From the IMG/VR virus record IMGVR_UViG_3300025832_000013, positions 1 to 49,576 of that record: DNA of 49,576 nucleotides. One strand, given 5' to 3'. Shown piece by piece: positions 3,153 to 49,246 of this stretch. Position 1 is the first letter of the stretch. The number at the start of each line of letters is the position of its first letter. Position numbers and translations under genes: made by a program. This DNA comes from a virus. Under the pieces are notes generated by a model, which was not told the DNA's origin, did no database searches, and saw only the letters and a list, made by a program, of their open reading frames with translations.

Positions 3153-4697
3153 ATGCAAGAATTAAAGTTAGTTAAAAATCTGGCTTTTGGCGATACAGCT
3201 AGAAGTCAGATATTAACTGGGGTTGAAAAACTTACTAATGCAGTAGGATCAACCTTAGGAGCAAGTGGAAAATGTGTTATACTAGAAGATAGTAATGGTG
3301 CACCACAAATAACAAAAGATGGAGTAACAGTTGCTAATAGCATTACGTTACAAGATCCACTAGAAAACATCGGAGCTACGCTTATTAAACAAGCAGCTCA
3401 AAGAACAGTATCAGATGCAGGCGATGGTACAACTACAGCTACAGTATTAGCTAAAGCCATATTAGATCAAGCTACAGAGCATTCTCTTTTAGATGATCCA
3501 AGAGCTATGAAACAAGGTATTGAATCAGGTGTTGATAAAGTTATAAAGTATTTAAATAAAAAGTCTAAAAAAGTTACTGGTAAAAAAATTGACCAAGTAG
3601 CAACTATATCTGCTAACAATGACAAAGAGTTAGGTAAAGTTATAGGTGAAGCATTTAGATTAGTAGATGAGACAGGTGTTGTTATGATGGAAACAAATGA
3701 ACAACCTGAAACTGTAGTAGAATTAATAGAAGGTGTTCAATATGATCAAGCGTTAAAGAACAACCATTTTATTACTAATAAAGAAAAAGGCACGGCTGAA
3801 CTAGATAATCCATTGGTTTTAATAGTTGAATCACAAATACCTAATGTTAGAAAGATACAGTCTGTTTTAGAATATGTTATTAAAAATGGTAAGAGTTTAC
3901 TTATCATTGCAGATGTTGACCAACAAGTAGTTTCCGCGCTGGCCATGAATAAAACGAAGGGTAACATAAAGGTCAATATCATAGATGCACCAGTATACGG
4001 AATCAGTAAAAAAGACGTGTTAAGCGATCTATGTGCTGTGACTGGTGCTACACTTATTAACGAAGACCTAGGAGATGATATGGATATTATACAGCCTGAA
4101 CATTTAGGATCATGTATTAAATCTGTAACTAACCACGAGGAAACAATTTTGCAAGTTGATTTAACTGATAATACAGAAGTTAAAGAAACTATTGCTTTGT
4201 TAGAAAAGAATATAAAAGAAACTAAAAACCCTAATATTATTATTAGACTAGAGAAACGATTAGCTAAATTAAAAGCTAAGGTTGCTACAGTTAAAGTTGG
4301 GGCTAACTCTGAGATAGAATTAAAAGAGAAGAGAGATAGAGTTGAAGATGCGATTTGCGCTACAAAAGCCGCGATTAAAGAAGGTATAGTACCAGGTGGT
4401 GGTATAGCTCTTTTAAATGCTAGCTTTAATTTGAAACCAACCTGTATAGGAGAGGAAGTATTATACCAAGCTATAAGAAAACCTTATGAATTAATATTAA
4501 AAAATGCAGGGGTTGAAGAATTAAAAAAGCTTGAAGAAGGTAAAGGATTAGATGTGGTTACAGGAAATACGGTAGATATGGTAAAAGCCGGAATTATAGA
4601 TCCTTTGTTAGTTACTAAAAGTGCATTAGCTAACGCGGCTTCAGTAGCTACAACTATATTATCAACTGATTGTGTGATTAACAACGTAAGAGCATGA
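3153..4697 (+). CDS. groEL: Phage-encoded GroEL chaperonin (Hsp60)
   Basis: GroEL forms ring-shaped ATP-driven folding chambers in the cytoplasm. Here it most likely folds abundant phage proteins such as the capsid protein. Visible hallmarks are ITKDGVTVA (D56, equivalent to E. coli D52), GDGTTTATVLAKAI (90-103, ATP site, D91), RVEDA (D399, equivalent to the catalytic D398) and VPGGGIAL (413-420). At 514 residues it is shorter than the usual ~548 and lacks the C-terminal GGM tail. The apical domain departs from the family: the usual RGYxSPYF is replaced by DQALKNNHF and the usual KAPGFGDRR by DAPVYGISKK. The ATP machinery is therefore conserved while the substrate/co-chaperonin face has changed. 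The stop overlaps groES by four bases (ATGA). The AT-rich leader has no Shine-Dalgarno sequence. Confidence 0.97.
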   Translation: MQELKLVKNLAFGDTARSQILTGVEKLTNAVGSTLGASGKCVILEDSNGAPQITKDGVTVANSITLQDPLENIGATLIKQAAQRTVSDAGDGTTTATVLAKAILDQATEHSLLDDPRAMKQGIESGVDKVIKYLNKKSKKVTGKKIDQVATISANNDKELGKVIGEAFRLVDETGVVMMETNEQPETVVELIEGVQYDQALKNNHFITNKEKGTAELDNPLVLIVESQIPNVRKIQSVLEYVIKNGKSLLIIADVDQQVVSALAMNKTKGNIKVNIIDAPVYGISKKDVLSDLCAVTGATLINEDLGDDMDIIQPEHLGSCIKSVTNHEETILQVDLTDNTEVKETIALLEKNIKETKNPNIIIRLEKRLAKLKAKVATVKVGANSEIELKEKRDRVEDAICATKAAIKEGIVPGGGIALLNASFNLKPTCIGEEVLYQAIRKPYELILKNAGVEELKKLEEGKGLDVVTGNTVDMVKAGIIDPLLVTKSALANAASVATTILSTDCVINNVRA

Positions 4698-8893: not shown

Positions 8894-9232
8894 ATGGGTT
8901 TTAAACTAAAGCCAAGTCCACCTTGGTACAATAAAGATTTAATGAATACTCCTATATATTTTGTAAAGGAAGAAGATGGTGTTTTAGGTAGAACTAATAT
9001 GAATTGTTCTATTACTATTAACGATAAGGTAAAAGGCCAAAAGCAGATTAAAGAAATTATAGATCATGAGATGGTTCACGTTAAACAAATAAAAGACGGT
9101 AGACTAGCTTATGATGATAAAAACATTTACCATAGAAAAAATGGTAAAGGTAAATGGAAAATTAAAAAAAGAAGTAAACAAGTTGATGGTTCCCCAATTA
9201 ACTGGTGGGAAGCTGAGGCTTATAAAAAATAA
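8894..9232 (+). CDS. Minimal HExxH zinc metallopeptidase-like protein (112 aa)
   Basis: The helix EIIDHEMVHVKQIKDGR contains the zincin motif H58-E59-x-x-H62. NWWEAEAYKK near the C-terminus supplies a candidate third ligand (E106 or E108) in the spacing expected of small gluzincin-like proteases. Y80/H80-region residues are polar, and Trp/Tyr flank the last helix. The protein is soluble without signal peptide. It sits between tiny basic proteins and the holin, so it could act in virion maturation, on host proteins or on the cell wall. The substrate cannot be told from the sequence. It starts two bases after the previous stop. Confidence 0.75.
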   Translation: MGFKLKPSPPWYNKDLMNTPIYFVKEEDGVLGRTNMNCSITINDKVKGQKQIKEIIDHEMVHVKQIKDGRLAYDDKNIYHRKNGKGKWKIKKRSKQVDGSPINWWEAEAYKK

Positions 9233-16814: not shown

Positions 16815-19800
16815 ATGAGTACAAAGTTTTTAAGTCCAGGCTGGCGAATGCCAAGAAATGCTAATCAGAGTAAAAGTTCTAATTATAGTTTAGATTTTGG
16901 TGGGAGTAATCAGTACATAAGCTCAAGTCCTACTCTTAGTGGCTTAACAGATGTAACTGTTAGTTGCTGGGCAAAATTTGAAAATATAAACAACAATGAC
17001 TTTCAATATGTTCTCATTGCTTATAACACTAGCCAATCAGGTAGTTATAGAGTAGGGATAGGTATGATAAAAAGCGACTACTCCACAGTTTCTGATAGAT
17101 ATAAACTATACACAATAGATGGCTCTAACTTAAACATTTCAAGCTTTGTAGTTTCACAAGATGTTTGGTATAATATTGTAGTTACTCAATCGGGTACTGT
17201 AAGAAAACTATTTGTAAATGGAGATTTAATAAGTACTTTTACGGGGGTACCATCATTGAACTTAGGGAACAACCTTGAAATCGGTAGATTTTCAAACAAT
17301 AATCATTATTTTCCAGGCAAGATAAATTCTGTATCCATTTTTGACTACGCTCTTTCTTCAAGCCAAGTAACAACTCTTTGGGGCGGTGGAACATCCGTCT
17401 CAAACCCAATGGCCTTACCAAGTTCTCCTATCGCTTATTATCCTTTAGGAGGATCAGCCGGAGCTTTTCAAACTCCAGTTAACAATAACGATAAATGGCT
17501 GATAGAAAACAATGCTATTGGAGATTATGTTTTTGATTTTGAACAATCATCTTCACAAAATATTGATATAGGAAGTTCTACATTATTTGATTCAACTTCA
17601 GCTTTTTCTTTTTCTACTTGGTGTAAATTAGAATCTTATGATAATAGTTTTCCAGCATTTATAAGATTAAAAACAGACCAATCAACAGGTTTTATAATGG
17701 GGTTTTCTAATAGTGCTACATATTATGGTGTGTGGTTTGGCAGTAGTAGTAACTTTTTAACTGCTAGAACAGCAGGGGACATATCAGCAGATTTATTAGG
17801 GGTTTGGAAACATATTAGTTTAGTTTATGATGGTGTAGACAGAACAGCAATTTCAAGTTATAGTTTATATATCAATGGAGTTCCTCAATCTTTAGTATCT
17901 TCTGGCTCTTTTGGTGCTACACCTAATACAAACTTAATAGGTCAAGGAAATACAGCATCAACATTTTGGGATGGTGAAATTAGTAACACCCAAATTTGGA
18001 ATACAAATCTTTCTTCATCAGAAATAACAACTCTTTATAACTACGGCTCACCAATAAGAACTTTAGCTAATATACCTCAAAACTCTAATCTAAAAGCTTG
18101 GTATAAACTCGATGCAAGTGAGGTTTATAATAGTACAACTACAGAGTGGGAAGTGAATAATGCTCAAAGCGCTTATCAATCTTCTTTAAATTTTAGTCCT
18201 AGAAGTTCTTCTAATAGAGTTAATTTACCAAGTATTAACCTAGGAACTGTAAATAGTATTTCTTTTTGGTGTAGAAGATTAGATAATTTATCTCATAAAG
18301 TTTTAGGATCTCCTACTGGTAGTCAAAATGATCCTGGTATATTTGCATATCTTGGAACAAATGTAGCATATTTAAGTTTTGGAGATGGCGTAAATAATTA
18401 TTCTAAATATTTTCAAGCAAATGATCCTAATTATACATTACTTAGATCTGACGATTGGATTCATTTTTTAATAGTAAGAAACGGAAACACAAGCCCTAAT
18501 GCAATGACTTTATATATAAATGAACAAGCTATTACATCGTTTACTACTTCCCCTACTTTATCTAATGATACTATATTAAATACTATTGGAGCTGGCGGTA
18601 TAACTGGACACCAAAATAGTGCAAATTGTGATATTTCTAACTTATCTATTTTTAATTCTGCTTTAGGTTCGACAGATGCTAATTCTTTATACAACAGCGG
18701 GTCTCCATTATCAGATATGAGTTCTTTTAGTTCTTTGGTTTCTTGGTGGAAATTAAACAACACCACTACAGGTGTTGAAGATTCAAAAGGATCTAATGAC
18801 GGAACTAATAACGGAGCTACTGAAGTATACGGCTCAGTATCTACACTAAATGGCGAAAGCTCAGGAATGTCTCAAGCAAACCTTGTTCAAAGTGACTTAC
18901 AAACAGTTGCGCCTTATAGTAAATACGCTATGAGCTTTGATGCTGCTGGAACAGATAGAATAAATTTTGGAAATCCTACTAATTTACAAATAACAAGCTC
19001 TTTTAGTGTATCTGTTTGGATAAATCAAACACCAGCAACAGACCACGCAACTGTTATTTCTAAAGATGCTTTTTCAACAACAAGATGCTGGGGGTTAAAA
19101 AGCAGTAGAGCTCCTACAAGTAATTTTGTAATGTTTTATCTTTTTGACCCAAATAATAATGCTTTTACTGTAGAAAGTAATATAAGAGTAGATGATGGAA
19201 AATGGCATCATTTAACTGCTGTTTATGAAGCTGGAAATTCAGTAAAAATATATGTTGATGGTAGTTTAAACAATACAAACTCTACAAGTATTCCATCTTC
19301 AATAGCAAATAAAAACGCAGATATAATTTTAGGTGAAGCTCATACTTCAGGATATTATGAATTTGGTGGTTCTATTTCTAACTGCTCAATTTGGAATACA
19401 GCATTAACTTCTGTACAAGTAACAGAAATTTACAACGAAGGTCTTCCTAGTAATTTAAATTCTCACTCTGCATATTCTAATCTAGTTTCTTGGTGGCAGT
19501 TAGGTGAAAATAGTTCTTTTGATGGAAATAATTGGATTGTAGCTGATGAAAAAGGTAGCAACAATGGAGATGGTCAAAATATGGGTGTAGACGCTTTAGT
19601 AAACGGTGTAGGTACAACAGCTAATGGAGTATCAAGCGGAATGTTAGAAGGTAGTTTAGTAGGTGACGCGCCATATAGTACAGCTAATACATTATCAAGT
19701 GGGATGAGTGTTGTATCAAGAGTTTCTGGAGTTAGTGACGCTACAATAACAACTGGAGGAACTGGATATTCCACTGGAACTAATATTGCAACAACGGGTG

Positions 19801-19967
19801 GTAGTGGTACAAATTGTACAATTAATATAACTACTGTTTCTGGAGGAGCTATAACTGCAATAACTATAAATAGTGGTGGTAATAATTATCTAATAGGAGA
19901 TGTTCTCACGGTGTCAGGTGGAAATGGCAATGCTACAATAACAGTTTCAGGTCTTAACACTCCGTAA
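16815..19967 (+). CDS. LamG-repeat adhesin/fibre (1050 aa, about four LamG units)
   Basis: Four LamG units begin near residues 23, 237, 455 and 703, each with the core strands and a WWKLN/WWQLG-type linker as in the preceding protein. The N-terminus MSTKFLSPGWRMP matches the type of its neighbour. The last ~90 residues are different: a Gly/Thr-rich beta segment with TGGTGYSTGTNIATTGGSGT and SGGNNYLIGDVLTVSGG, a repeat known from phage and surface proteins, likely forming a tip or trimerisation part. This tail has no equivalent in the 1422-aa protein, so the two may form different fibre tips. Confidence 0.87.
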   Translation: MSTKFLSPGWRMPRNANQSKSSNYSLDFGGSNQYISSSPTLSGLTDVTVSCWAKFENINNNDFQYVLIAYNTSQSGSYRVGIGMIKSDYSTVSDRYKLYTIDGSNLNISSFVVSQDVWYNIVVTQSGTVRKLFVNGDLISTFTGVPSLNLGNNLEIGRFSNNNHYFPGKINSVSIFDYALSSSQVTTLWGGGTSVSNPMALPSSPIAYYPLGGSAGAFQTPVNNNDKWLIENNAIGDYVFDFEQSSSQNIDIGSSTLFDSTSAFSFSTWCKLESYDNSFPAFIRLKTDQSTGFIMGFSNSATYYGVWFGSSSNFLTARTAGDISADLLGVWKHISLVYDGVDRTAISSYSLYINGVPQSLVSSGSFGATPNTNLIGQGNTASTFWDGEISNTQIWNTNLSSSEITTLYNYGSPIRTLANIPQNSNLKAWYKLDASEVYNSTTTEWEVNNAQSAYQSSLNFSPRSSSNRVNLPSINLGTVNSISFWCRRLDNLSHKVLGSPTGSQNDPGIFAYLGTNVAYLSFGDGVNNYSKYFQANDPNYTLLRSDDWIHFLIVRNGNTSPNAMTLYINEQAITSFTTSPTLSNDTILNTIGAGGITGHQNSANCDISNLSIFNSALGSTDANSLYNSGSPLSDMSSFSSLVSWWKLNNTTTGVEDSKGSNDGTNNGATEVYGSVSTLNGESSGMSQANLVQSDLQTVAPYSKYAMSFDAAGTDRINFGNPTNLQITSSFSVSVWINQTPATDHATVISKDAFSTTRCWGLKSSRAPTSNFVMFYLFDPNNNAFTVESNIRVDDGKWHHLTAVYEAGNSVKIYVDGSLNNTNSTSIPSSIANKNADIILGEAHTSGYYEFGGSISNCSIWNTALTSVQVTEIYNEGLPSNLNSHSAYSNLVSWWQLGENSSFDGNNWIVADEKGSNNGDGQNMGVDALVNGVGTTANGVSSGMLEGSLVGDAPYSTANTLSSGMSVVSRVSGVSDATITTGGTGYSTGTNIATTGGSGTNCTINITTVSGGAITAITINSGGNNYLIGDVLTVSGGNGNATITVSGLNTP

Positions 19968-20558: not shown

Positions 20559-20760
20559 TATAGGTTCTGACTATAAGAACGATGCAATGCATTATTCAAC
20601 TGGTCAGGAAGTATATGGTGGACATACTATTAGCGATATTCTTTTTGAAGACAAAGACCAATCATATAATATTTTTATAACTAAAAATAATGAAGTCTTA
20701 CCTTGGAAAAAGTTTAATGCTAATATGTCAATATCTGTAGAGTATGATCTTAAGTATTAA
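20533..20760 (+). CDS. Small hypothetical protein (75 aa)
   Basis: Compact mixed alpha/beta sequence with MHYSTGQEVYGGHTISDILF and a Trp-containing VLPWKKFNANMSISVEYDL end. I do not recognise a domain. It overlaps the coiled-coil gene by 26 bp in another frame, and its stop is fused to the next start (TAATG), which makes it a firm member of this operon. It is probably a late or packaging-associated accessory protein. Confidence 0.65.
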   Translation: MSKVIRKISIGSDYKNDAMHYSTGQEVYGGHTISDILFEDKDQSYNIFITKNNEVLPWKKFNANMSISVEYDLKY

Positions 20761-21353
20761 TGCAAAGCTTATATTATTTTATTGTCAAACCTTTAAACGA
20801 TAGGTATGACAATACAAGAAGAGTTGCTGATACTGATCTTATTATCAACAGCGGCATTGAAGACCATAGATTTATTAGTAAAAAGGCTGTAGTAGTTCAA
20901 ACTCCTGCAGCTTATGCTACTAAAATAAATATAGGAGATGAATTATATATTCACCATAATATATTTAGAAGATGGTATGATCAAAAAGGTAAAGAACGAA
21001 ATAGTTCAACTCATTTCAAAGATGATCTTTATTTTGTTTCTCCTGAACAAATCTATATGTATAATTTAAAAACACATTTAGATTATTGCTTTATAAAACC
21101 ACTTAAAAACCAAAGTGTTTTAGAGAATAGAAAAGAACAACCTAACGTTGGAATAGTAAAATATTCTAACAAGTCCTTAGAAGCTCTTAAAATAACACCT
21201 GGAACCCTTATTACGTTTACACCTAACTCTGAGTTTGAGTTTATTATAGAAGGTGAACGACTTTATTGTATGAAATCTAATGATATAGCTTTAACTCATG
21301 AATACCAAGGAAACGAAGAAGAAAATAATCCAAGCTGGGCAAAAAGCAGTTGA
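20760..21353 (+). CDS. Tandem GroES-like fold protein (197 aa)
   Basis: Two halves each follow the GroES barrel pattern. Half one (about 3-107) has YYFIVKPLNDRYD, a middle loop LIINSGIEDHRF, KINIGDELYIHHNIF and DDLYFVSPEQIYMY. Half two (about 109-190) has YCFIKPLKN, GIVKYSN, ITPGTLITFTPNSEFEFIIEG and ERLYCMKSNDIAL. These mirror KPLxDR, xGIxL, GDxVxF and xDIxA of GroES. If true, it could be a second co-chaperonin or a structural barrel protein derived from one. It lies just upstream of the terminase genes, 16 kb from groEL/groES. Translation is TAATG-coupled to the previous gene. The fold is inferred by pattern, not by search. Confidence 0.6.
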   Translation: MQSLYYFIVKPLNDRYDNTRRVADTDLIINSGIEDHRFISKKAVVVQTPAAYATKINIGDELYIHHNIFRRWYDQKGKERNSSTHFKDDLYFVSPEQIYMYNLKTHLDYCFIKPLKNQSVLENRKEQPNVGIVKYSNKSLEALKITPGTLITFTPNSEFEFIIEGERLYCMKSNDIALTHEYQGNEEENNPSWAKSS

Positions 21354-35462: not shown

Positions 35463-37142
35463 ATGGCCATTGCAATAAAATATTTTAACTCTTTTGTTTT
35501 AAAGAAGAACGTTAATGATGTTACTACAGGTAATGCAGCTTATCAACCTGTTTTTTCTGGCTTACCTAACAACCCTAGTGGTTACCCTACTTTTGGTGTT
35601 AATTCTAGTAGTGACACTAATACTATTGGTATTGGTGGTAGAAACTGGATAATAGAAGAAGCTAGAATAAGAGGTGGTTATAATAATACATCGACTAGTT
35701 ATGGTCCAAGAGCTTATTTAGTAGAAAACTCTAATGAGCAATCAGTTAGGGTAAATGCTTTAATATACTCAGGTGTTTATAATTCAAGAACTGATTTAAA
35801 TGAAACAAATGTATTTTCAGTTGGAGAAGAAATAACAAAAGCTGTAGATCCTAATTATGGCTCTATACAAAAGCTTCATGCCTTAGATAGCAACTTAGCT
35901 ATATTTCAAGAAAACAAAGTAAGCAATGCTTTAATAGATAAAGATGCTATTTACTCTGCTGAAGGAGCAGGATCTGTAACATCGACTAATTTAGTTATTG
36001 GTCAAATAACTCCTTATGTAGGAGAGTATGGTATAAGTAAAAACCCTGAAAGCTTTGCTTATTATGGCTATAGAAGATATTTTATAGATAAATATAGAAA
36101 TGCTGTAATGAGATTATCAAGAGATGGTTTAACTGAAATATCTCAATATGGTATGTCTACTTTCTTTAGAGAAGAGTTTGCTAAAATAAATAGCAATTTT
36201 AAAGAATTTACATTTACAGGTGTTATAGCAGGTTCTGGATCAAGCCCAGCCAAGCTAACATTAAGTCCTTCAAATGTTTTAACTAACTTAGAAAAAGGCA
36301 TGTTAGTCTCTATACCTCAAACAAGTGGTTCACCTATATCAGCTACTATTACTGGTATAGTTAACACAAATACATTATACTTAAGTAACGATCCTGGAAC
36401 TCCAAATGTTGGACAAAATGCTACTTTTACTAAATTTATAAAAGATAGATTATTAGGTGGTTGGGATATTCACAATAAAAACTATGTAGTATCTATACAA
36501 GACAAAAGCGAAGATACTATAACGCCTGATACTTATAGCACTTTAAGTTTTGAAGATGATATAAATGGTTGGACTAGCTTTTTTACTTATGAACCTAATT
36601 TTATTGGTAGTTTAAAAAGTAAATACTATAGTTTTTACGATGCTGAAATATATGAGCATTATGATCAAACACCTGGCCATATTAGAAGTACTTTTTATGG
36701 TTTAACTTCTAACTCTAGTGTAGAATTTATATTTAACGCTAATCCAAGTATAATAAAGAATTTTAAAACTGTTAATTACGAAGGTAGTAACGGTTGGCAA
36801 GTTGAGTCGTTTTTATCAGATGCAGAAGGATTTGATTTACAGTCAGGTGCAAACCAACAGTATAATGACTCTGCTAAACTAGTAAGAAGCTATGAAGAAG
36901 GTTTATACACAGAAAGTGGTGTACCTTATAGAGCAGGTTTTAATAGAAAAGAAAATAAATATTTTGCTAATTTAATAAATAATAGTGTAGCTAGACCAAA
37001 TGAAGTGTTCTTTGGTGATGCAACTACAGGTATTAAAGGTTATTTAGCAACAGTAAAAGTATCGACAGATGCAACTACAGATTTAGGTGGAACTAAAGAG
37101 TTGTTTGCTGTCTCAACAGAATTTGTAGTATCATCAAGATAA
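35463..37142 (+). CDS. Large tail protein (559 aa)
   Basis: Beta-rich protein with IGGRNWIIEEARIRGGYNNT, QSVRVNALIYSGVYNSRTDL, FSVGEEITKAVDPNYGSIQK, LHALDSNLAIFQENKVSNAL and FAYYGYRRYFIDKYRNAVMR. This pattern, in which reading blocks such as DSNLAIFQENK resemble propeller blades, is found in marine podovirus tail proteins. It directly follows the 1170-aa tail protein and probably assembles with it in the nozzle or hub. No enzyme motif is seen. The A/T-only leader with GATAATATAAT contains no Shine-Dalgarno. Confidence 0.68.
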   Translation: MAIAIKYFNSFVLKKNVNDVTTGNAAYQPVFSGLPNNPSGYPTFGVNSSSDTNTIGIGGRNWIIEEARIRGGYNNTSTSYGPRAYLVENSNEQSVRVNALIYSGVYNSRTDLNETNVFSVGEEITKAVDPNYGSIQKLHALDSNLAIFQENKVSNALIDKDAIYSAEGAGSVTSTNLVIGQITPYVGEYGISKNPESFAYYGYRRYFIDKYRNAVMRLSRDGLTEISQYGMSTFFREEFAKINSNFKEFTFTGVIAGSGSSPAKLTLSPSNVLTNLEKGMLVSIPQTSGSPISATITGIVNTNTLYLSNDPGTPNVGQNATFTKFIKDRLLGGWDIHNKNYVVSIQDKSEDTITPDTYSTLSFEDDINGWTSFFTYEPNFIGSLKSKYYSFYDAEIYEHYDQTPGHIRSTFYGLTSNSSVEFIFNANPSIIKNFKTVNYEGSNGWQVESFLSDAEGFDLQSGANQQYNDSAKLVRSYEEGLYTESGVPYRAGFNRKENKYFANLINNSVARPNEVFFGDATTGIKGYLATVKVSTDATTDLGGTKELFAVSTEFVVSSR

Positions 37143-38024: not shown

Positions 38025-39848
38025 ATGGAAGATTTTAGTAAACCAGTAAGCCCTTATAGAGGTCGAGGAAGAGGTAATTATGTACCTAGAACAATTTTTA
38101 ATCCTGCAGCTGATGTTTTAGCTGGAATTGAGTATGTAGAAGGAACCTTTAAAGAAAGAAGAGATAAAGTAAACTTATTTCAACAGCAAGCTGAGCAAAG
38201 GCGTATAGATATGCAGAAGCTGGTTAATGACACTCAAAGAATTGATCAGACTGAAACTATGACCAAGATGACTGAGCAGTTTTCTAATATGGTTACTGAT
38301 ATATATAAAGCAGATATAGCTAGCTTTGATGGTGATAGAAGTGATTATTTAAATAAAGCTAATAATGCTCAAAGAGTAATAGGTAGTTTTGGAAAAGTAA
38401 TAGGTACTGTGAACGAGCTTTCTAATGAGTTTCTAAGCAAGAATCCAGCTGAACAAAAAAAGATGGTTTTAAGAAATCAATTTTTAGGTAAAGATGGTGA
38501 TAAAAGAAAAGCTTATATGGATTTTTTAAATGATCCATCTAAAATGAATATTAGAATACAAGGTGAAGATATAATTATAACTAACAATGGTCAAGATTTA
38601 TTTAATGGCACTCAGCTTTTAAACTCTGTTAAAGATGGTAATGGTTTAATAGAATACGCTAATGATTACGAAAAGGAGCTAACACAAGCGTCTAATGAAG
38701 CTTCGTCTGGTTTGCAAAGTTTAGTTAAAGCTAGTTCTATAGAAAAAGCAGCAGCTGGTGGAACTAAAATAACTACAGAGGTTAAAAACGATTACATAAA
38801 CGCTGTTAATGCTTATAAAAATAATTTAGAAAACAGTGATAAAATAGAGGCTTTAATAAATGAATCTAATTTTCAAAGATTTACTGATAGTCCAGATGCT
38901 TACGATAATAAAAAACATGGAAAATTAACTAAAGAAAAAATGATTGAGTATTTAGTTAACAAAAAATTCCCTATGTATAATGATGTTACTGGAACAGCTA
39001 TTGGTGATCAAAAAACTACTACGGACATTGGAGCTCCAATGAGTTTAGGTGAAAGTGCTAGATTAAATTTTCAAAAAATGAAATTTACTGTAGATCAAAT
39101 ACAAACAGCTAAAACAGAGCAAGAGCTACAAAGATCAATTGACTTTTATTTAAATAGAAACTTAGAACATGCTGCTAAAGTTAGTAAAATGCCTAAAAAC
39201 AGCAAGCAAAGAACAGAGACTACAGTTAAGCTACTTAACGAAGCTAGAGGCATAGAAGAACTAGGTTTTAAATCAATGCAGGGTGTAATAGATGAAAATG
39301 GAGAATTTGAAAAAGATTCTGACTCTGACAAATATTATATTTTAGACGCTGATGGAGCTTTAGTTCAAGGTGTAGGAGATAATATTGGACTAGTTGATGC
39401 TTTAAATCAAGAAACTGTATATAAAAACCTTAACATGGACACGCAAAGTGAAATAAAGCCTTATGTAATAAATAGAATGGCTAATTTTTCTAAACAAGTT
39501 AACGCTATTGAAAATAAACAACCAGCTGCAGTTAATAAAAAAGTTAAAGGTGAAGACGTTACTATTCCTACGGATCCTTCAGAACAAGTTAACTATGTTA
39601 TAAAGTTGCAGGATGATAAAATAAATAATATAACATTATCTGATTATAACAAATATAGAAATAAAATAGGTTTAAAATCTATAAACCAAAATGAGTTTGA
39701 TATCACCCACAAACCAGGCTTAATACAACAGTATAGACTAGGTGGAAAAGAAGGAGATTATGGAAATATTATACAAACAATATCTAACGAAATAGATAAC
39801 TACGTAAATAAAAACGCAGGTAAAAAAGATCCTAAAAGTATTTTATGA
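38025..39848 (+). CDS. Probable internal virion protein (607 aa)
   Basis: Hydrophilic, largely helical protein with an Arg/Gly-rich start (SPYRGRGRGNYVPRTIFNP), Gln-rich coiled coils (VNLFQQQAEQRRIDMQKLVN) and many Asn/Asp-rich segments. I see no enzyme motif, signal peptide or membrane segment. The four-base ATGA overlap with the 2331-aa gene and the order small/medium/giant recall the T7 gp14-gp15-gp16 cluster, the last of which carries an enzymatic domain. By that analogy it would be the gp15 counterpart. This is an inference from order, size and composition. Confidence 0.6.
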   Translation: MEDFSKPVSPYRGRGRGNYVPRTIFNPAADVLAGIEYVEGTFKERRDKVNLFQQQAEQRRIDMQKLVNDTQRIDQTETMTKMTEQFSNMVTDIYKADIASFDGDRSDYLNKANNAQRVIGSFGKVIGTVNELSNEFLSKNPAEQKKMVLRNQFLGKDGDKRKAYMDFLNDPSKMNIRIQGEDIIITNNGQDLFNGTQLLNSVKDGNGLIEYANDYEKELTQASNEASSGLQSLVKASSIEKAAAGGTKITTEVKNDYINAVNAYKNNLENSDKIEALINESNFQRFTDSPDAYDNKKHGKLTKEKMIEYLVNKKFPMYNDVTGTAIGDQKTTTDIGAPMSLGESARLNFQKMKFTVDQIQTAKTEQELQRSIDFYLNRNLEHAAKVSKMPKNSKQRTETTVKLLNEARGIEELGFKSMQGVIDENGEFEKDSDSDKYYILDADGALVQGVGDNIGLVDALNQETVYKNLNMDTQSEIKPYVINRMANFSKQVNAIENKQPAAVNKKVKGEDVTIPTDPSEQVNYVIKLQDDKINNITLSDYNKYRNKIGLKSINQNEFDITHKPGLIQQYRLGGKEGDYGNIIQTISNEIDNYVNKNAGKKDPKSIL

Positions 39849-42800
39849 TTATTGAAGGAGATCCAGAAAAATTTTTAACTGACTTTTATTCTAAGAAAAA
39901 CAACGAAGAAATAAGTCAAGAAAAGCTAGATTCTATATTATCTACTTATGGAGATAATTACGACATGTTAATATCAGATTTATATTCTAAATATGATCCT
40001 GAAGGATTAGATGATTCTAAGTTAGCTACTATTAAAGAGTCTTACAAGTTAGCCCCTGAAGAAAGTCTTGAGCAAAAATACTTAGTTAATGGTTTTGAAG
40101 TAGATAAAGCTGGTATGATAAAAAGACTTTATAACGATGAGTTTGTTGAAAGGTTTCAGAAAGGTGAAATAACAGTAGATATAGAAAATGATTCTAAATT
40201 AAAAGCTATAGCTAACCAACAAAAAAATTCTGGAGATGCTTGGAGTGATGCTTATGAATCCTTAGAGAATGGAGCTTCACTACTAATGCAAGGTATAATA
40301 GGTGCCGAAACTTATTTATCAGATGGTTTAGAACTTTTAACAGGGGTAAAGGAAGCGCCGGTCATCGGTGGTTTTGTTAGTAGTATACCAAAAGACGTTA
40401 GAAATTCTATAAGTAAAGAATTAATAGATAAAGTTGAAAAAAATGAACTTAAAATAAGAGCTACAGAAGGTGATTTTGTAAGCGAATTAAGTAATGGAAA
40501 TTTTTCAAGAGCTGCTAAAATGGGTTTAAATACCACATTACAATCAGCTCCACTAATGGTTGCTTCAATTGGTGCTGCTTACGCTACTGGAGGATCTTCA
40601 ACTGCATTGCAAGCTTTAGCTGGTGCAACCACAATGACAGCTTTAATAACACCTGCAGAATATGTGCAAACATTAGTTTCAGAAGATCCAAATATACAAA
40701 AGCTTTCTAAAGAAGAAAAGTTTTTTAGAGGAACAGCTAGAGGTTTAGCTGAGGGTGTACCTGAAGGTTTAATGGGGCCTATAGGTTTAAACGGTGGAAA
40801 AATACTTCTTCAAGGATTGAAAGGTTTAGTTAAAAAGGCTAGTATAGAACTAGGAGAAACAACCGCAAAAGGATTAGCTAAAGAGCTAGGTAAAGAAACT
40901 TCGCTAGAAATAGTTCAAGCTTTTGGATTAGGTACTGCGGCTGAAGGAGTTACTGAATTTACAACTTCTTTAGCTCAAGATTTAACAGACGATTTTCTTG
41001 GTGTTCAAAATTTAGGTTTTGAAGAATACTTAAGAAGAGGTGCTAATGCTGGAGCTTTAGGTGTTTTTATGGGTGGTGTAGTTCAAAGTAGTGGTATTGC
41101 ATTAAATTCTGGTAAAAACACTTTATTAAGAAATAATAGTGTTAAACAAGGTGCTATATCAGAAATAAGAAAAGAACAAGAGTTAGGTATTATTTCTAAA
41201 CAACAAGGTGACGAGCTTATAAAGCAAATAGATGAACTGCAGCAAGCAGTTGATCAGACAGATTCAGAATTGTCAAATGAGCAGCAAGAAAAAATAACTA
41301 ATTTAATTTATAGAAAAAATGAATTAAATAATAGAATAAAAGGTTTAGATCCTAGCCAAGCTTCTGTTAAAAAAGCAAAAAAAGAAATAGAAGCTATTGA
41401 TAAAGAAATAGCTGAAACAAGCGCTAGTGAAGCTGACATTGATATAGCTACTAAAAAAGCAAGTGTAGGTGAGTCTATTATAGACTTAAGACTGAATAAA
41501 ACTATAAAATTTTTAGAAGCTCAAGGTAAGAAGCTTGGTAAAAGAACTTATACAGTTGAAGATGAGTTTGATGCTAATGGAAATTTAGTTAAATCAGCTG
41601 GTGAAAAAGCTCAAGAAATATATGATGAATATGTTAAAGAAAATCCAGGAACAAAACCTATGGATGTTTCTAATGAAGAAGCTTGGAAAGTAGGTGACAT
41701 AGCCGTTATAAATAAGAATTTATCCAAACAAAGAGGTGCTATATCTGTTGGTTCTCATGAAACTTTTCATTTTCTTGTAGACGATTATTTTGAAGGTGTA
41801 GATATAGAAGATAGAAGAACGTTAATTAAAGATTTTAAAAACTTATTAAGTAAAAAACAATTAGAAGTTGTAAACAAAAGGATACAAGATGCTTACATGA
41901 CAATGGAAGGTTTTGATCCAGAGACTTCTATAGAGTGGTTTACTGCTTTTTCAGATGCTATAGAATTAAATGAAATAACTTTTAATGAAAATATAGGCAA
42001 TAAGATATTAAATTTTGTTCAAGAAATATTAAGAAAACTAGGTATTAAAAAAGAATTTGAAAACGCTAGACAAGCTTACAACTTTATGAAAGATTATTCT
42101 AAGAGTGTTTCAAAAGGACAGTTAAGTAAAAGAGCTTTAAAGTTATCAAAAACTTCAAGCATTAAAAAAGGTATTTCTTTTTCTAAATCTGAAGTAACAG
42201 ACTTAGCCAAGCAATACAAAGCTGATCCTAATAAAGCTGATGTAGAGAAACTAGTTAAACAATATAACAATGTGGCTTTAAAAGCTTTGGGTTATGATAT
42301 ATCTAAAGGAACTATTGCTCCAGAAGAAGCTATATCATTTGTTAATAAAGAGTTTGATAGTATATTAAGAAGATATGATGGCTCTACAGAATTTTCAACA
42401 TGGATCAATTCTAATATAAGACCTAAGCGTCAAGCTTTTTATGAAGAACAAATAGGTAAACAATCAGAAACTACTAGCATTGACTCTGAGCAAGCTAGAC
42501 AAGTTGTAGATGACTCAGAAACTACAACTGATGATAGGACTGAAAAAGAAATAAGACAAGCAGAGAGAAAGACTAAGGTAGCAAAAAGATTAAAACTAGA
42601 GGAAAAAGCTATAAAAGAAGTAAGTGAAAAAGTAAAAGATATTGACTTATCTAAAGTTAATTATAAAACTCTTAAAAATTTAGCTAATGAAACCATTGGT
42701 GAAGCATTTGGTATATCACCTAAGAAAATATTAAGTAATGCTAATTTAACTAAAGGTGAAATAGCCAATGCTCAAAGATATATAAAAAATAATGTTGACT

Positions 42801-45800
42801 TATTAAAAGCTTTATTACCTGATGGATATAATAAAGACTTTAAATCTACTGGTGTTCCTAAAGTGCTGCTTGATAAGTTTTATAATAAGCGTAGTGTAAG
42901 ATCTAAAACAGGTGCTGGTTTAAATGTGCAAATTAAAAAACCTAATATAGGTAGTACAGAGTTTTTAGAAGTGTTTGGGTTTGTAGATGGTAAACCAACT
43001 AGAAATGATAGAAATATATCTGCTAGAATAATAGCATTAGCTAATCAAACTGGTAAAGCTATAACTAATCAAACTGTTAGAGAGCAATTACAAAAAGAAG
43101 GTATGCCTGAGTCTGCTTTACAAGATATTAAAAGTGGAACACCTGTTGGAATGTTTAGTAAAACTGTAGATGGTATAATAAACATAAGAAATTTATTTCA
43201 ACTAGAGGCTAATGGTAAAGATAAATTGTTAAAAGCTTATGGTCTTAAAAAGTCTTTAAAAATAAAAAACGAAGAAGATATAAACGAATATGTGAAAATG
43301 TTGAAGTCCGATATTTTTATATTAGGTCCTAAAGAAATGTGGTTTGGACCTAGCGGCGGCAGCGTTTTTACTAGTAGCTCTAAAATAATAGGCGTTAAAT
43401 CTTCTAGTGATCCACTTTGGAAAACTTTTGTAACTAAGATTAAAGAATTAGAATCTGATAACAGCATAAAATACGGCAAACCTATACCTGGTGTAAATAC
43501 TAAAGATATTTGGTCTTTAAGAAATAAGTATGATAAGTTTTTTAAATCTCCAGAAATAATAGAAAAAAATATAAAAAATGGGGAAATTAAAAAATTTAAT
43601 AAACAAGTTGCAGCTATTCACAAAGCATTATGGGAAAGAATAAATAAAGAAATATCAAAAGATAATAACAAAGCAACTGGAATAGCTACTTATCTAGGTA
43701 TTGTTGCTAATGATACTGGTCATTGGCATAAATTAGGCGCTCAATTTGAAGGATATTCTAAAGATATAACAGGTAAAAGATATGAATATGAGCACGCTAT
43801 GCCTGCTACTGCAGCTTATTTATACTTGTTAGACGCATCGTTGTCCGAAGTTGACTTTAACACTGCTTATGATTTAGTGGTGGATAATTATAAGCTAATA
43901 GCTCTTGATAAAGCTATGGATGATAAATTAAGAAACGCTAGAACAGATAAAGGTTATAGTTTACAAAGAAGAATGCCTGACGACTGGAGTGTTATAGATA
44001 ATTCTTGGTGGCAAAGATATTTTAATGACATAGTCTCTAGCCAAGATGGAGGTATAGATCCAAATTCTATAATAGGTTTAGATGGTAAAACATTTGGTAA
44101 AATGTTTAATGTTGATGCTAATGGTAACTCTACAACAATTGAAGTAGAAAAATTAAAATCAAAAGCTAAAAACATAAACGTAAAAAATTTATCAAACAAT
44201 GTTGTAAATTTCAGTAAAACAACTAATAACGAAGGTGTTATTGGATATGCTAAAACAATTGATGAAGCTTTAAAAATAGCAAGAGATCCTAATGCTCCTG
44301 TTAAAAAAATTAGAGTATTTGATTTTGACGATACATTAGCTACTACCAAATCAGATGTTTTATTTACAGCGCCTGATGGAACTGAAGGTAAATTAAATGC
44401 TGAAGAGTTTGCTAAGCAAGGAGCACAACTACTAGAAGAAGGATATGTATTTGATTTTTCTGAGTTTAATAAAGTAACTAAAGGTAAACCTGGACCACTA
44501 TTAGATATAGCTAAAAAAATACAAACAGCGAGAGGAACTGAAGATGTATTTGTTTTAACTGCTAGAGCACCTGAAGCTCAAGTAGCTATTAAAGAGTTTT
44601 TAGATAGTGTAGGGTTAAATATACCATTAGAAAATATAACTGGCTTAGGTAATTCAACAGGTGAAGCTAAAGCCAGCTGGATGGTTGAAAAAGCTGCAGA
44701 AGGTTATAATGATTTTTATTTTGCAGATGATGCTTATCAAAATGTAAAAGCTGTTAAAGACGCTATGTCAGTTCTCGATGTAAAATCTAAAGTTCAGCAA
44801 GCTAAAATAAAATTTAGTAAATCTGTTAACGAAGATTTTAATAAAATAATAGAACAAACTACGGGAATAGCATCGGAAAAAGTATATTCAGAGGCTAAAG
44901 CAAAAGTAAGAGGAGCTAATAAAGGTAATAAAAAATTCTTTATACCTTACTCAGCTGAAGACTTTATGGGATTAATATATCCATTATTAAGTAAAGGTAA
45001 ATTAGGTGATAGCCAAATGGCTTGGTTTAAAAAGAATTTACTTGATCCATATGCTATGGCAAATGAAAATATAGCAGCTGATAGAATACAATTAATGGAG
45101 GATTTTAAAGCTCTTAAAAAAGCATTAGAAGTTCCTAAAGATCTTAGAAAGAAAACTGATTCAGGTTTTACTAAAGAACAAGCTGTAAGAGTTTATTTAT
45201 TTAACAAAGCTGGCTTTGATATTCCTGGTATATCTAAAACAGATTTAAACGAATTATTAGATTTAGTTAACTCTGATGGCGTTTTAAAAGCATTTGGTGA
45301 TCAAATATTTAATATAACTAAAGGTGATGGTTATGCTAAGCCAGGTGAAAACTGGTTAGTTGGTACAATTACAACTGATTTAATTGATGTATTAAATACC
45401 GTTAAAAGAGCTAAATACTTAGAACAATCTGGTTATACCGCTAATGCTGAATTAATATTTAGTAAAGAAAATTTAAACAAGCTAGAAGCTGAGTATGGCG
45501 CTAAATATAGAGAAGCTTTAGAAAATGTTTTAGGTAGAATGAAGTCTGGTAAAAACAGAATATTTAGTGGTAATAGACTTAGTAATAGAGTTTTAGATTA
45601 TATAAATAATTCTACTGGAGCTATAATGTTCTTTAACACTAGATCAGCAGTTCTTCAAACTATATCTGCTATAAACTTTTTGAATTGGAGTTTTAATAAT
45701 CCTATAAAAGCAGGTGCTGCATTTGCTAATCAACCTCAATATTGGAAAGACTTTGTTGAGTTAATAAACTCTGATTATTTAGTTGATAGACGTAATGGTT

Positions 45801-46840
45801 TAAAATTAAATATAAATGAATCTGAGATAGCTGATGCTGCATCGACTAGTAAAAATAAAGCTAAAGCCGCTATTAATTATATATTACAAAAAGGATTTTT
45901 ACCTACACAATTTGCTGATAGTTTTGCTATAGCTTCTGGTGGCGCTACATTTTATCGTAATAGAATAAAAGATTTAATAAAGAACGAAGGTATGTCTGAA
46001 GCTGATGCTAAAAAGCAAGCTATGTTAGAGTGGAGAGAAACAGCTGAAATATCTCAACAATCATCTGATCCAAGTAAAATATCTGCTCAACAAGCTAGTG
46101 ATTTAGGAAGAGTTATATTAGCTTTTGCTAACACGCCAATGCAATATGCTAGAATACAAAAAAGAGCTTTACAAGACATAGTTAACGGAAGAGGCGATGC
46201 TAAAACACATGTTAGTAAGATTATATACTACGCTGTGGTTCAAAACTTGATATTTAATGCTTTACAATCTGCTTTATTTGGTTTAGGCTTTGGAGATGAT
46301 GAAGACGATGAGAAAAAAGAAAAGATGTATACTAGAATAGCTAACGGTATGTTAGACTCTCAATTAAGAGGTTTAGGAGTTGCTGGAGCTACAGTTGCTG
46401 TAATTAAAAACTTTTTAACTGATATATACGAAAGATCTGGAAGAAAAAGACCTGAGTATGTAGATTCAATATATAAATTGTTACAAATATCTCCACCTGT
46501 AAGTAGTAAAATATCTAAAATTAGAGGAGCTGCTTGGCAATTTGATAGCAAAAAACGTAGAGAAGAAATATTTGAAAAAGGATTTAGCATAGATAATCCA
46601 GCATATGAAGCTGGTGCAAAAGTAATATCTGCAACTGCAAATATACCGCTAGACAGAGTGTATAGCAAAGTAAATAATATTTCTGGAGCTATGGATGAAG
46701 ATGCTGAAACTTGGCAAACTGTAGCTATGTTAGCTGGTTGGCCTAAGTGGCAAATAATGCCTGACAGCAAAGAGTCAAGCACTTTTAGTAGAGGAAATGT
46801 TAAAATTAAAAAAAGAAAATCAAAAAGAAGATCTAGATAA
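39845..46840 (+). CDS. Giant polyvalent virion protein with zincin and HAD domains (2331 aa)
   Basis: Probable ejected multidomain protein. From N to C: an acidic helical start; hydrophobic segments at about 230-275 (APLMVASIGAAYATGG); a coiled coil (about 430-560); a zincin motif SHETFHFLVD (H638, E639, H642) with candidate third ligand E697 (IEWFTAF); a segment FSTWINSNIRPKR near 850 reminiscent of sigma region 2; an unknown block GHWHKLGAQFEGYS ... YEYEHAMPATAAYL (about 1290-1325); a complete HAD phosphatase domain with FDFDDTL (about 1490), LTAR (about 1570), GEAKASW (about 1606) and FADDAYQNV (about 1625); then a long C-terminal module with hydrophobic helices (about 2115-2190). FSK(S/T) motifs stand at domain borders (about 767, 779, 1455, 1656). 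Layout fits the large polyvalent proteins of phages. Confidence 0.82.
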   Translation: MIIEGDPEKFLTDFYSKKNNEEISQEKLDSILSTYGDNYDMLISDLYSKYDPEGLDDSKLATIKESYKLAPEESLEQKYLVNGFEVDKAGMIKRLYNDEFVERFQKGEITVDIENDSKLKAIANQQKNSGDAWSDAYESLENGASLLMQGIIGAETYLSDGLELLTGVKEAPVIGGFVSSIPKDVRNSISKELIDKVEKNELKIRATEGDFVSELSNGNFSRAAKMGLNTTLQSAPLMVASIGAAYATGGSSTALQALAGATTMTALITPAEYVQTLVSEDPNIQKLSKEEKFFRGTARGLAEGVPEGLMGPIGLNGGKILLQGLKGLVKKASIELGETTAKGLAKELGKETSLEIVQAFGLGTAAEGVTEFTTSLAQDLTDDFLGVQNLGFEEYLRRGANAGALGVFMGGVVQSSGIALNSGKNTLLRNNSVKQGAISEIRKEQELGIISKQQGDELIKQIDELQQAVDQTDSELSNEQQEKITNLIYRKNELNNRIKGLDPSQASVKKAKKEIEAIDKEIAETSASEADIDIATKKASVGESIIDLRLNKTIKFLEAQGKKLGKRTYTVEDEFDANGNLVKSAGEKAQEIYDEYVKENPGTKPMDVSNEEAWKVGDIAVINKNLSKQRGAISVGSHETFHFLVDDYFEGVDIEDRRTLIKDFKNLLSKKQLEVVNKRIQDAYMTMEGFDPETSIEWFTAFSDAIELNEITFNENIGNKILNFVQEILRKLGIKKEFENARQAYNFMKDYSKSVSKGQLSKRALKLSKTSSIKKGISFSKSEVTDLAKQYKADPNKADVEKLVKQYNNVALKALGYDISKGTIAPEEAISFVNKEFDSILRRYDGSTEFSTWINSNIRPKRQAFYEEQIGKQSETTSIDSEQARQVVDDSETTTDDRTEKEIRQAERKTKVAKRLKLEEKAIKEVSEKVKDIDLSKVNYKTLKNLANETIGEAFGISPKKILSNANLTKGEIANAQRYIKNNVDLLKALLPDGYNKDFKSTGVPKVLLDKFYNKRSVRSKTGAGLNVQIKKPNIGSTEFLEVFGFVDGKPTRNDRNISARIIALANQTGKAITNQTVREQLQKEGMPESALQDIKSGTPVGMFSKTVDGIINIRNLFQLEANGKDKLLKAYGLKKSLKIKNEEDINEYVKMLKSDIFILGPKEMWFGPSGGSVFTSSSKIIGVKSSSDPLWKTFVTKIKELESDNSIKYGKPIPGVNTKDIWSLRNKYDKFFKSPEIIEKNIKNGEIKKFNKQVAAIHKALWERINKEISKDNNKATGIATYLGIVANDTGHWHKLGAQFEGYSKDITGKRYEYEHAMPATAAYLYLLDASLSEVDFNTAYDLVVDNYKLIALDKAMDDKLRNARTDKGYSLQRRMPDDWSVIDNSWWQRYFNDIVSSQDGGIDPNSIIGLDGKTFGKMFNVDANGNSTTIEVEKLKSKAKNINVKNLSNNVVNFSKTTNNEGVIGYAKTIDEALKIARDPNAPVKKIRVFDFDDTLATTKSDVLFTAPDGTEGKLNAEEFAKQGAQLLEEGYVFDFSEFNKVTKGKPGPLLDIAKKIQTARGTEDVFVLTARAPEAQVAIKEFLDSVGLNIPLENITGLGNSTGEAKASWMVEKAAEGYNDFYFADDAYQNVKAVKDAMSVLDVKSKVQQAKIKFSKSVNEDFNKIIEQTTGIASEKVYSEAKAKVRGANKGNKKFFIPYSAEDFMGLIYPLLSKGKLGDSQMAWFKKNLLDPYAMANENIAADRIQLMEDFKALKKALEVPKDLRKKTDSGFTKEQAVRVYLFNKAGFDIPGISKTDLNELLDLVNSDGVLKAFGDQIFNITKGDGYAKPGENWLVGTITTDLIDVLNTVKRAKYLEQSGYTANAELIFSKENLNKLEAEYGAKYREALENVLGRMKSGKNRIFSGNRLSNRVLDYINNSTGAIMFFNTRSAVLQTISAINFLNWSFNNPIKAGAAFANQPQYWKDFVELINSDYLVDRRNGLKLNINESEIADAASTSKNKAKAAINYILQKGFLPTQFADSFAIASGGATFYRNRIKDLIKNEGMSEADAKKQAMLEWRETAEISQQSSDPSKISAQQASDLGRVILAFANTPMQYARIQKRALQDIVNGRGDAKTHVSKIIYYAVVQNLIFNALQSALFGLGFGDDEDDEKKEKMYTRIANGMLDSQLRGLGVAGATVAVIKNFLTDIYERSGRKRPEYVDSIYKLLQISPPVSSKISKIRGAAWQFDSKKRREEIFEKGFSIDNPAYEAGAKVISATANIPLDRVYSKVNNISGAMDEDAETWQTVAMLAGWPKWQIMPDSKESSTFSRGNVKIKKRKSKRRSR

Positions 46841-47130: not shown

Positions 47131-47387
47131 TGTTTTATTTTTATTATAAGATAAACATTAGAAAACATTATACTTATTAAAACAATAGCTGCATATATTA
47201 TAGCATCACCTAAATAAGGTTTAACTGCTAAAGTAAATGCAGATAAAGTTACCATTTTAATAAATAAACTTCCGTACATAATACCATAGCCGGCTTTTTC
47301 AAACCGACTAGTTAGTATTATTACCATAAATGTTATTACAAGAACCAGTATTGCAGCAACAAATCCGTATATAGCTGATGCTATCAT
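47127..47387 (-). CDS. Three-segment membrane protein (86 aa)
   Basis: Almost entirely hydrophobic, with three probable membrane segments: YGFVAAILVLVITFMVIIL (about 7-25), MYGSLFIKMVTLSAFTLAV (about 37-55) and AIIYAAIVLISIMFSNVYLI (about 62-81), and few charges (TSRFEKAG loop, KIKQ end). It starts inside the 3' end of nrdJ with a four-base overlap, so it is translated from the same transcript. Holin, antiholin or host-membrane modifier are all possible. I do not recognise the family. Confidence 0.65.
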   Translation of the reverse strand: MIASAIYGFVAAILVLVITFMVIILTSRFEKAGYGIMYGSLFIKMVTLSAFTLAVKPYLGDAIIYAAIVLISIMFSNVYLIIKIKQ

Positions 47388-49246
47388 TTTATTTCACAAC
47401 CGTCTGCGCCGCAAGCAATCTCTCCAGCAAGATCTGTTTCATCTTCTGTTTCAACGATTTTACTAAGATCAACATCTTTTAAATGTTTCATAGCGTTATC
47501 GTATTGCACTTTACTTATATCTTCAAATGGTGCTTGAGTATATGTTCCACCATCATAAGGAAGTACAGATAAACCATTATAATGATCTCTATTTTCCCAC
47601 ATCCATTTTCCTGCTTGATCCCACTCTGTTTGCTTTAAACTAACAGTAGCTGAAACATTGTGAGTATTAGATCCTTTTCTGTGACCAGGCTTAACCCATT
47701 CAGTAGCTACCTTTTTAATTCTTTCAAGTAAATCAAATGGTGATTCATGTCTTAATATAGAATTTTTAGGTGCTTTTTGTGGTATACTAATTACAGCTGT
47801 ATCATGAGGTCTAAAGAACTCATCTTCAACTAGTTCAGGATGATTTGCAATTAAATACTTATACATAGACTCGTTTTTACCAACTCTTATTCTACGCGTA
47901 TAATAATCGTTATGCCATGCATGAATACCAGATGAAGTTCCTAATGCCAGAGATGTCGTCCCAGCAGGCTTCACGGTCGTGCATCTTGCAGCTGGATTAA
48001 TACCAATTGCTTTAGCTGTCTTTGTATTCTCTCTTTTTACTATACCTGCAGCGGCCTTCATATCCAACGGCAGCACAGCGGCACTCGCGATTCCTGTCAT
48101 TGATACACCGATAAGGGCGTCCTTCTCTGTCGTATCTCTCCATACATCTCTTAAATAATGAAAGTCAGTGTAACCAGCTTGTAGTGTACCTATAAAGCTT
48201 GCTTTTCTAACTCTATCGTTAAAATCCTCTTGTGATTCAATATCACTAGCATTTACCTCACATAAGTTACAAAACTGAAAAGGTCTTAATGCTATTTCAC
48301 AACAAGGGTTTGTGCCCCAGTCTTTATCATTATTAAGGTATATACCAGGTTCACCTGATCCTGATAGCTCAACACGTTTCCATAAATCCATAAAGAAACC
48401 TTTAGTAACTTTATGTCTCATAAGAACAGCTGAATTATTAGCTCTACCTCTTTGTGGATCTGTTTCCCACCAATTACCAGACTTAGCTCCAATCATTTCA
48501 TTGTCTTCAGCAGAAAACAAACTAATTAAAGCAGCTCTACGTATACCACCAGCTAAAACAGCATCGGCAATATGACAAACAATATCATGTGCTTCTAATG
48601 TTGTTAATGGTGTACCATCTTCCTTGCCATCAAATATACCTTTGATTTTAAGTATACACTCTTTTAAAGGCTGTGGTCCTGGCGCTTTGCCGCCTGATGT
48701 AACTAATTGAGCTCCTTTAGCTCTAATATCAGAAAAGTCAAACTGTACGCTAGATGATCTCTTATCGCCCATATAGGACTTCATAAGAACTTTAATTGCG
48801 TCAGCCCAACCTTCAATGCTATCACCGATTAAAAACCTTCGTGTTCTTTTAGCGTAAGGTTTATTAACTGGTGGCATTTGTTTCACATGGTGGTTTTGCA
48901 CAGAGTATCCTACTCCGGTACCACCTAATAATAAAAACATTATTTCATGAAAACACTCAATGCTATCAATAGGTAGATAAGCACAATTATAAACTCGATT
49001 AGGCGAGATCTCAATCGGTTTACCTCCGAACTGTAGCGAGCGCATGCTAGGTAAAATTTTCTTTTCATATACTAATTTATAAGCTTCTTCTATTTCTTCT
49101 TTTAATTTAGGGTATTTTTTAATATGCATATTTCTATTACGAGTAACTAATTCATCCCATGTTTCTCTTCTATTAAGTTCTGGTACAAACTTAGCATACT
49201 TCATATACACTGTTATATCACTTAGTATTTTGTTCGATAACTCCAT
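47384..49246 (-). CDS. nrdJ: Adenosylcobalamin-dependent ribonucleotide reductase, class II
   Basis: It reduces ribonucleotides to deoxyribonucleotides for phage DNA synthesis, using coenzyme B12 to create the thiyl radical. Visible elements are C88 (NCAYLP), GGTGVGYSVQ (108-117), NPCCEI with N313, C315 (radical Cys) and E317, C326 (QFCNLCEVN, 11 residues after C315 as in Lactobacillus RTPR), and PAGTTSLALGTSSGIHAWH. The C-terminal redox pair CGADGC (C612/C617) has the RTPR spacing. At 620 residues it resembles the monomeric triphosphate reductase type but is shorter. It overlaps the 75-aa gene upstream by 29 bp and the membrane gene downstream by 4 bp. It makes the phage depend on host cobalamin. 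Confidence 0.95.
   Translation of the reverse strand: MELSNKILSDITVYMKYAKFVPELNRRETWDELVTRNRNMHIKKYPKLKEEIEEAYKLVYEKKILPSMRSLQFGGKPIEISPNRVYNCAYLPIDSIECFHEIMFLLLGGTGVGYSVQNHHVKQMPPVNKPYAKRTRRFLIGDSIEGWADAIKVLMKSYMGDKRSSSVQFDFSDIRAKGAQLVTSGGKAPGPQPLKECILKIKGIFDGKEDGTPLTTLEAHDIVCHIADAVLAGGIRRAALISLFSAEDNEMIGAKSGNWWETDPQRGRANNSAVLMRHKVTKGFFMDLWKRVELSGSGEPGIYLNNDKDWGTNPCCEIALRPFQFCNLCEVNASDIESQEDFNDRVRKASFIGTLQAGYTDFHYLRDVWRDTTEKDALIGVSMTGIASAAVLPLDMKAAAGIVKRENTKTAKAIGINPAARCTTVKPAGTTSLALGTSSGIHAWHNDYYTRRIRVGKNESMYKYLIANHPELVEDEFFRPHDTAVISIPQKAPKNSILRHESPFDLLERIKKVATEWVKPGHRKGSNTHNVSATVSLKQTEWDQAGKWMWENRDHYNGLSVLPYDGGTYTQAPFEDISKVQYDNAMKHLKDVDLSKIVETEDETDLAGEIACGADGCEIK

Follow-up and report, generated by a model that had tools for sequence, protein, structure and literature searches.

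A recurrent FSK motif at the domain borders of a giant polyvalent-type phage protein most likely serves in processing or docking

Polyvalent proteins are giant, multidomain proteins that are encoded at the end of virion gene clusters and combine a zincin-like domain with exchangeable enzyme domains, and passages of Iyer et al. 2017 (PMC5512222) propose that the zincin processes them autoproteolytically. The same passages give DdrB of phage P1 as processed and the virion RNA polymerase (vRNAP, gp50) of phage N4 as not processed; the prohead protease Pro reportedly cleaves P1 DarA (PMC12810830). The idea that polyvalent proteins are split into separate effectors dates from 2017, and we found no general cleavage site, motif string, or junction motif for such processing described in the open-access literature searched. 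Here, we analyse a short motif that recurs in a 2331-aa protein encoded by open reading frame (ORF) 39845-46840 (+) of a marine phage (IMG/VR record IMGVR_UViG_3300025832_000013; the 49,576 nucleotides analysed are referred to as the window). We conclude that this motif most likely serves in processing or docking.

The window protein resembles the polyvalent proteins in size and domain make-up, and it comes last in a virion gene cluster that runs from terminase and portal through a muzzle-like protein and two smaller proteins. It is probably packaged in the virion, and this gene position suggests that it may enter the host with the DNA. Residues 575-1700 hold at least four domain-like units, with a conserved C-terminal domain in addition, as expected of a very large multidomain protein; and HETFH at 638 with the later SIEWF provides the zincin-like metallopeptidase with a later Glu that characterises polyvalent proteins. 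It differs from them in its annotated domains: Pfam and NCBIfam searches revealed no named LPD, ART, or ParB polyvalent domain, and we therefore call it polyvalent-type, not a proven member. A further difference is that the searched passages of PMC5512222 mention no junction motif. N4 gp50, also a giant protein that is ejected, likewise combines flexible linkers with a zincin-like domain that has HExxH (PMC12633501), yet it is packaged uncut according to passages of PMC5512222 and has one [RK][FY]S[KRLIV] site with no repeat. Head proteins, too, are matured by proteolysis at a defined site, for example between E120 and S121 of the P1 major capsid protein (PMC9024508), but in the window motif no Glu precedes the presumed cut position. 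A scan of window proteins likewise revealed no head-maturation protease, and the giant protein does not look like a substrate of such an enzyme.

The first-pass annotation had picked out four hexapeptides (LKLSKT, ISFSKS, VNFSKT, and IKFSKS), and all are encoded in ORF 39845-46840 (+), starting at residues 765, 777, 1454, and 1655 (Table 1). It had also placed them correctly, two after the zincin (HETFH 638) and two flanking a HAD/polynucleotide-kinase-like domain. A fifth copy, GMFSKT at 1102, had been overlooked; solely its non-hydrophobic first residue excludes it from the pattern then given. This copy divides the two domains that lie between the zincin and HAD regions, and the last one, IKFSKS, forms the junction ahead of the conserved C-terminal domain. 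Tested as [ILVMF]-x-[FL]-S-K-[ST], the original pattern occurs four times in the protein against a composition expectation of 0.08, and none of 20,000 shuffles reached four. Because it was chosen on this same sequence after seeing the data, the weight rests on homologues and a hold-out set. The protein is rich in K (10.7%), S (7.4%), and N, which makes chance or composition one alternative to consider, and the other window proteins (11,676 aa) do contain three similar [FLY]SK[ST] strings.

No phage record in INPHARED matches the giant protein, and a first IMG/VR search returned eight relatives whose C-terminal domains are 47-96% identical to that of the window protein. In all eight, the site at 1104 aligns with FS and then one of K, R, E, Q, or M, and in most, those at 1456 and 1657 align as FSK or variants, with poorly conserved flanks. 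One or two motifs are still present in two relatives that lack the HAD domain (L006 and L008). A profile search with the C-terminal domain added 80 more viral loci and 13 loci from genome assemblies, and the resulting family set comprises 102 ORFs, 92 of which are not open at the 5' end. Ahead of the C-terminal domain, FSK occurs 110 times versus 41.5 expected (75 representatives), and 16 proteins carry at least three spaced copies versus 1.6 expected; by this score, FSK ranks behind a single tripeptide, FDF, itself a part of the HAD motif. When [RK][FY]S is taken with any following residue X, K stands out (58 observed versus 10.0 expected), and the next X (D) is just 2.4-fold above expectation. 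Copy number ranges from 0 to 5 across family members.

The hold-out set came from a second search, started from family member L007, which yielded at least 80 further loci with 78 ORFs; patterns fixed beforehand were then tested on 61 representatives that share less than 45% similarity with the first set and among themselves. The pattern [KRN][FY]SK[STA] was found 29 times versus 2.7 in shuffled sequences (maximum 7 in 60 shuffles), and matched control patterns stayed near expectation. Together with the tests of border and position, which also replicate, this makes chance or composition a very improbable source of the repeats.

Motif sites coincide with the borders at which domains are shuffled among homologues. 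With the C-terminal junction left out, 88% of 25 [KRN][FY]SK[STA] sites lay at most 8 aa from an alignment end, which is 6.9 times the local density; the simple controls [FY]NK, [FY]TK, and [FY]AK reached 26-43% and 0.5-1.5 times the density. In the hold-out set, 83% of sites were near an alignment end (5.6 times the density). Sites are also placed asymmetrically relative to the first HExxH, with 1 upstream and 33 downstream in the family (p=2e-8) and 0 upstream and 20 downstream in the hold-out set (p=2.7e-6). The hold-out control [RK][FY][EDQ] leans the opposite way (122 upstream, 88 downstream), which argues that the C-terminal position effect is not a general bias. The motif is thus a replicated, border-linked short linear motif. 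The first-pass annotation had suggested looking for it between the domains of homologues, and it stands there in both sets, neither scattered at random nor inside folded cores.

Such strong coincidence with alignment ends, and the coming and going of flanking domains such as HAD, could also mean that shuffled modules simply carry a short linker stretch along, so that borders are marked and nothing recognises them. Two observations make this by-product unlikely. First, exchange should touch borders upstream of the zincin too, yet the motif is nearly absent there. Second, different Ser codons are used inside one protein: TCA, TCT, AGT, AGT, and AGT across the five window sites and TCT, TCA, TCG, TCC, and TCC in the protein L231, which carries an ART-PolyVal domain; recent copying of DNA thus does not account for the repeats. 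AGY and TCN codons are mixed in 27 of 62 within-protein site pairs of the window family and in 35 of 96 pairs of the ART-PolyVal (ART) set. This mixture points to selection on the peptide, not the DNA, and disfavours DNA-level duplication as the source of the repeats. Site pairs with identical Ser codons somewhat exceed the random expectation (24 versus 17.0 in the window family, 33 versus 21.6 in the ART set), and given this excess, some DNA copying among sites may have occurred.

Structure prediction is consistent with linkers. An AlphaFold2 model of residues 575-1700, built on 44 family sequences, has a mean predicted local distance difference test score (pLDDT) of 79 and a predicted template modelling score of 0.48, a value at which the relative positions of the domains are untrustworthy. 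All five sites are local pLDDT minima, with a site mean of 53 versus 79 overall (p=0.001 against random placement). They are thus predicted to occupy low-confidence, flexible linkers that separate well-predicted domains, and sites that recur in such linkers, at the borders of domains, are what a self-processed polyprotein would have.

A similar motif appears in unrelated giant polyvalent proteins with an ART-PolyVal domain (PF18760). This domain has a common ending, D-I-R-[FY]-S-X (66 ends matched), and several of the proteins have similar sites just ahead of the ART start or 120-200 aa past an HExxH. Among 48 representatives, [RK][FY]S-X outside the ART end has the same X as the protein's own ART end 19 times, versus 2.5 expected by composition and 5.9 under label permutation; none of 5,000 permutations reached 19. 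In L231, for example, the ART domain ends in [RK][FY]SLR and four such sites lie elsewhere in the protein, and the same agreement is seen in L187 (FSRRE) and L189 (FSI). An excess of [RK][FY]S[KRLIV] is also general, though weaker, in other ORFs of the ART loci (21 versus 11.5), and the agreement of X within a protein is therefore the stronger evidence. Proteins without HE(x)2-3H have 2 sites in 9,012 aa, too little sequence for comparison with the 43 in 116,489 aa of the others. A family search with L114 returned one viral contig alone, identical to L114. The ART-PolyVal proteins differ from the window family in that X varies by protein (R, L, V, K, N, I, and others), whereas it is K in the window family, and the window protein has no ART domain.

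We favour, with about as much doubt as confidence, a protease-recognition linker that releases effector modules. In this reading, one short linear motif, which this family spells phi-[KRN]-[FY]-S-K-[STA], is repeated as the FSK(S/T) sites in flexible linkers between the domains, where a protease most likely recognises it. Cutting would free the part C-terminal to the zincin, that is, the effector domains and the conserved C-terminal domain, and would leave the N-terminal half intact; it could take place as the head matures or once the protein has been ejected. With its single [RK][FY]S[KRLIV] site, N4 vRNAP fits this pattern, since passages of PMC5512222 report that it is packaged uncut. Of the "processing site or recognised linker" of the first-pass annotation, the recognised linker is well supported by the borders in homologues and hold-out set, the predicted linkers, and the analogous ART-PolyVal motif, and we infer the cutting. 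If it is a cleavage site, the motif would show how one polypeptide can deliver many separate enzymes. As a short motif with exact coordinates, it makes the processing question directly testable, and it would help to split unannotated giant proteins into modules. More tentatively, phage polyvalent proteins in general might be true polyproteins with phi-[RK]-[FY]-S-X cut sites between modules, X being protein-specific and co-evolving with a metallopeptidase in cis or nearby. X would then be fixed within a protein, as K here and as R, L, V, or I elsewhere, and domains could be swapped freely provided that the local site travels along.

Several observations weigh against protease recognition. No cleavage product is known for the giant protein. 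The looser controls SK[STA], [FY]DK[STA], and LSK[STA] are likewise border-enriched. F/Y-S tripeptides are not globally enriched in 22 other giant polyvalent or related phage/prophage proteins, a broad sample of LPD38, DdrB, DarB, and similar types that includes P1 DarB/DarA/DdrB, BcepMigl, and MetMV. The C-terminal-domain junction has the motif in many family members, and in others it is often degenerate, deleted, or missing. Likewise, [FY]SK[STA] after the zincin is absent from 37 of 72 5'-complete members, although 64 would lack it by chance. The motif is thus a tendency and not obligatory in the family. Two homologues whose internal zincin has lost its first zinc-binding His (EELFH in L036 and L039) each keep two KFSKA sites. 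In the broad sample, LPD38-type proteins repeatedly have NFSRRG/NFSKRG-type strings in their C-terminal region; we set these aside as a likely confounder.

Persistence of the motif after loss of that His would also be expected if the extended phi-K-F-S-K were an uncut docking motif that binds a partner (portal, core/ejection protein, or neighbouring domain) and lets the giant cargo be stored, unfolded, or threaded in order. A linker is a natural place for such a segment, selection would again act on the peptide, and a protein-specific X fits co-evolution with any partner. Moreover, giant virion proteins can stay uncut: passages of PMC5512222 report this of N4 vRNAP and also of two plasmid proteins, ArdC and TraC1. 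A general threading signal would not be expected to be nearly absent from the N-terminal half, nor to vary so widely in copy number among family members, and we regard docking as possible though rather doubtful.

If the motif is a protease-recognition site, candidate cutters are the internal zincin, a 112-aa zincin encoded at 8894, or a different protease of the phage or its host. HExxH is found in about 90% of the giant-protein family; at the internal active site it is missing from 5 of 90 proteins aligned there, and EELFH replaces it in L036, L039, L077, and L087, with the zincin domain otherwise kept. Motif sites showed no link to the intactness of the internal zincin: on average, a protein has 1.01 sites where the zincin is intact (85 proteins) and 1.00 where it is altered (5 proteins), although five cases are few and the altered zincins might be recent. 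The protein's own zincin, proposed as cutter in the first-pass annotation, is thus not clearly the enzyme, since the motif persists without the first His in some homologues. The 8894 zincin was the other cutter put forward in the first-pass annotation. Of 31 long family contigs, 28 encode a homologue of it, among them the contigs of L036 and L039, and all 20 homologues that were fetched have HExxH. It is a possible trans-acting protease, although shared genomes, its one link to the motif, do not by themselves make it the cutter.

Table 1. Motif sites, domains, and candidate peptidase in the window
Feature	Residues	Window position	Strand	Details
112-aa zincin-type peptidase		8894..9232	+	HEMVH ... 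WWEAEA; Pfam M91 below cut-off, E=0.0079
Giant polyvalent-type protein		39845..46840	+	2331 aa; ORF calling, PHROG/Pfam scans, homologous ORFs
Zincin-like domain	~590-756	41612..42112	+	HETFH 638-642; family zincin hidden Markov model
Motif site 1, LKLSKT	765-770	42137..42154	+	Ser codon TCA; pLDDT 41
Motif site 2, ISFSKS	777-782	42173..42190	+	Ser codon TCT; pLDDT 53
Helical domain	~785-1085	42197..43099	+	AlphaFold2 model
Motif site 3, GMFSKT	1102-1107	43148..43165	+	pLDDT 59/36
Domain of unknown function	~1110-1440	43172..44164	+	High-confidence model; conserved EYEHAMPA motif
Motif site 4, VNFSKT	1454-1459	44204..44221	+	Ser codon AGT; pLDDT 65/66
HAD/polynucleotide-kinase-like domain	~1483-1650	44291..44794	+	phrog_415 match
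Motif site 5, IKFSKS	1655-1660	44807..44824	+	Ser codon AGT; pLDDT 58
Conserved C-terminal domain	1661-2300	44825..46744	+	Family hallmark; query for finding homologues

The domains between the sites are only partly annotated (Table 1). The zincin-like domain has no significant Pfam match, and its later Glu, within SIEWFTAF, is the probable third ligand. The phrog_415 match of the HAD domain spans residues 1483-1657 (E=1.1e-4), and Foldseek matched this region weakly to class C acid phosphatases of the HAD type (best prob 0.92, E 0.2); the FDFDDT motif of the domain is missing from L006, L008, and others. A Foldseek search of the multi-domain model against the PDB returned no significant match. 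Between motif sites 2 and 3, residues 801-962 (42245-42730, +) have a sub-threshold sigma-70-like match (TIGR02937, E=0.0046); this region contains FSTWINSNIRP and is possibly an injected sigma-like domain.

Among the family loci from genome assemblies, L092, L095-L097, L099, and others lie on contigs binned into Caldiserica, Woesearchaeota, and Alphaproteobacteria metagenome-assembled genomes, and these are probably mis-binned phage contigs. In the window, the muzzle-like protein (35463-37142, +) matches the crassvirus muzzle C-terminal domain (Pfam crAss_MUZ_C, E=2.6e-10), and the position of the giant protein a few genes past it suggests a tie to crAss-like virion organisation. The window also encodes a GroEL-type chaperonin (3153-4697, +; Cpn60_TCP1, E=2.9e-53), a GroES-type co-chaperonin (20760-21353, +; phrog_13932, E=1.8e-20), and a ribonucleotide reductase (47384-49246, -; phrog_367, E=2.9e-128) with the Pfam B12-dependent ribonucleotide reductase insertion domain. 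A 1050-aa protein with Laminin_G_3/concanavalin-type domains (16815-19967, +; E=3.5e-66) is a probable tail or receptor-binding protein.

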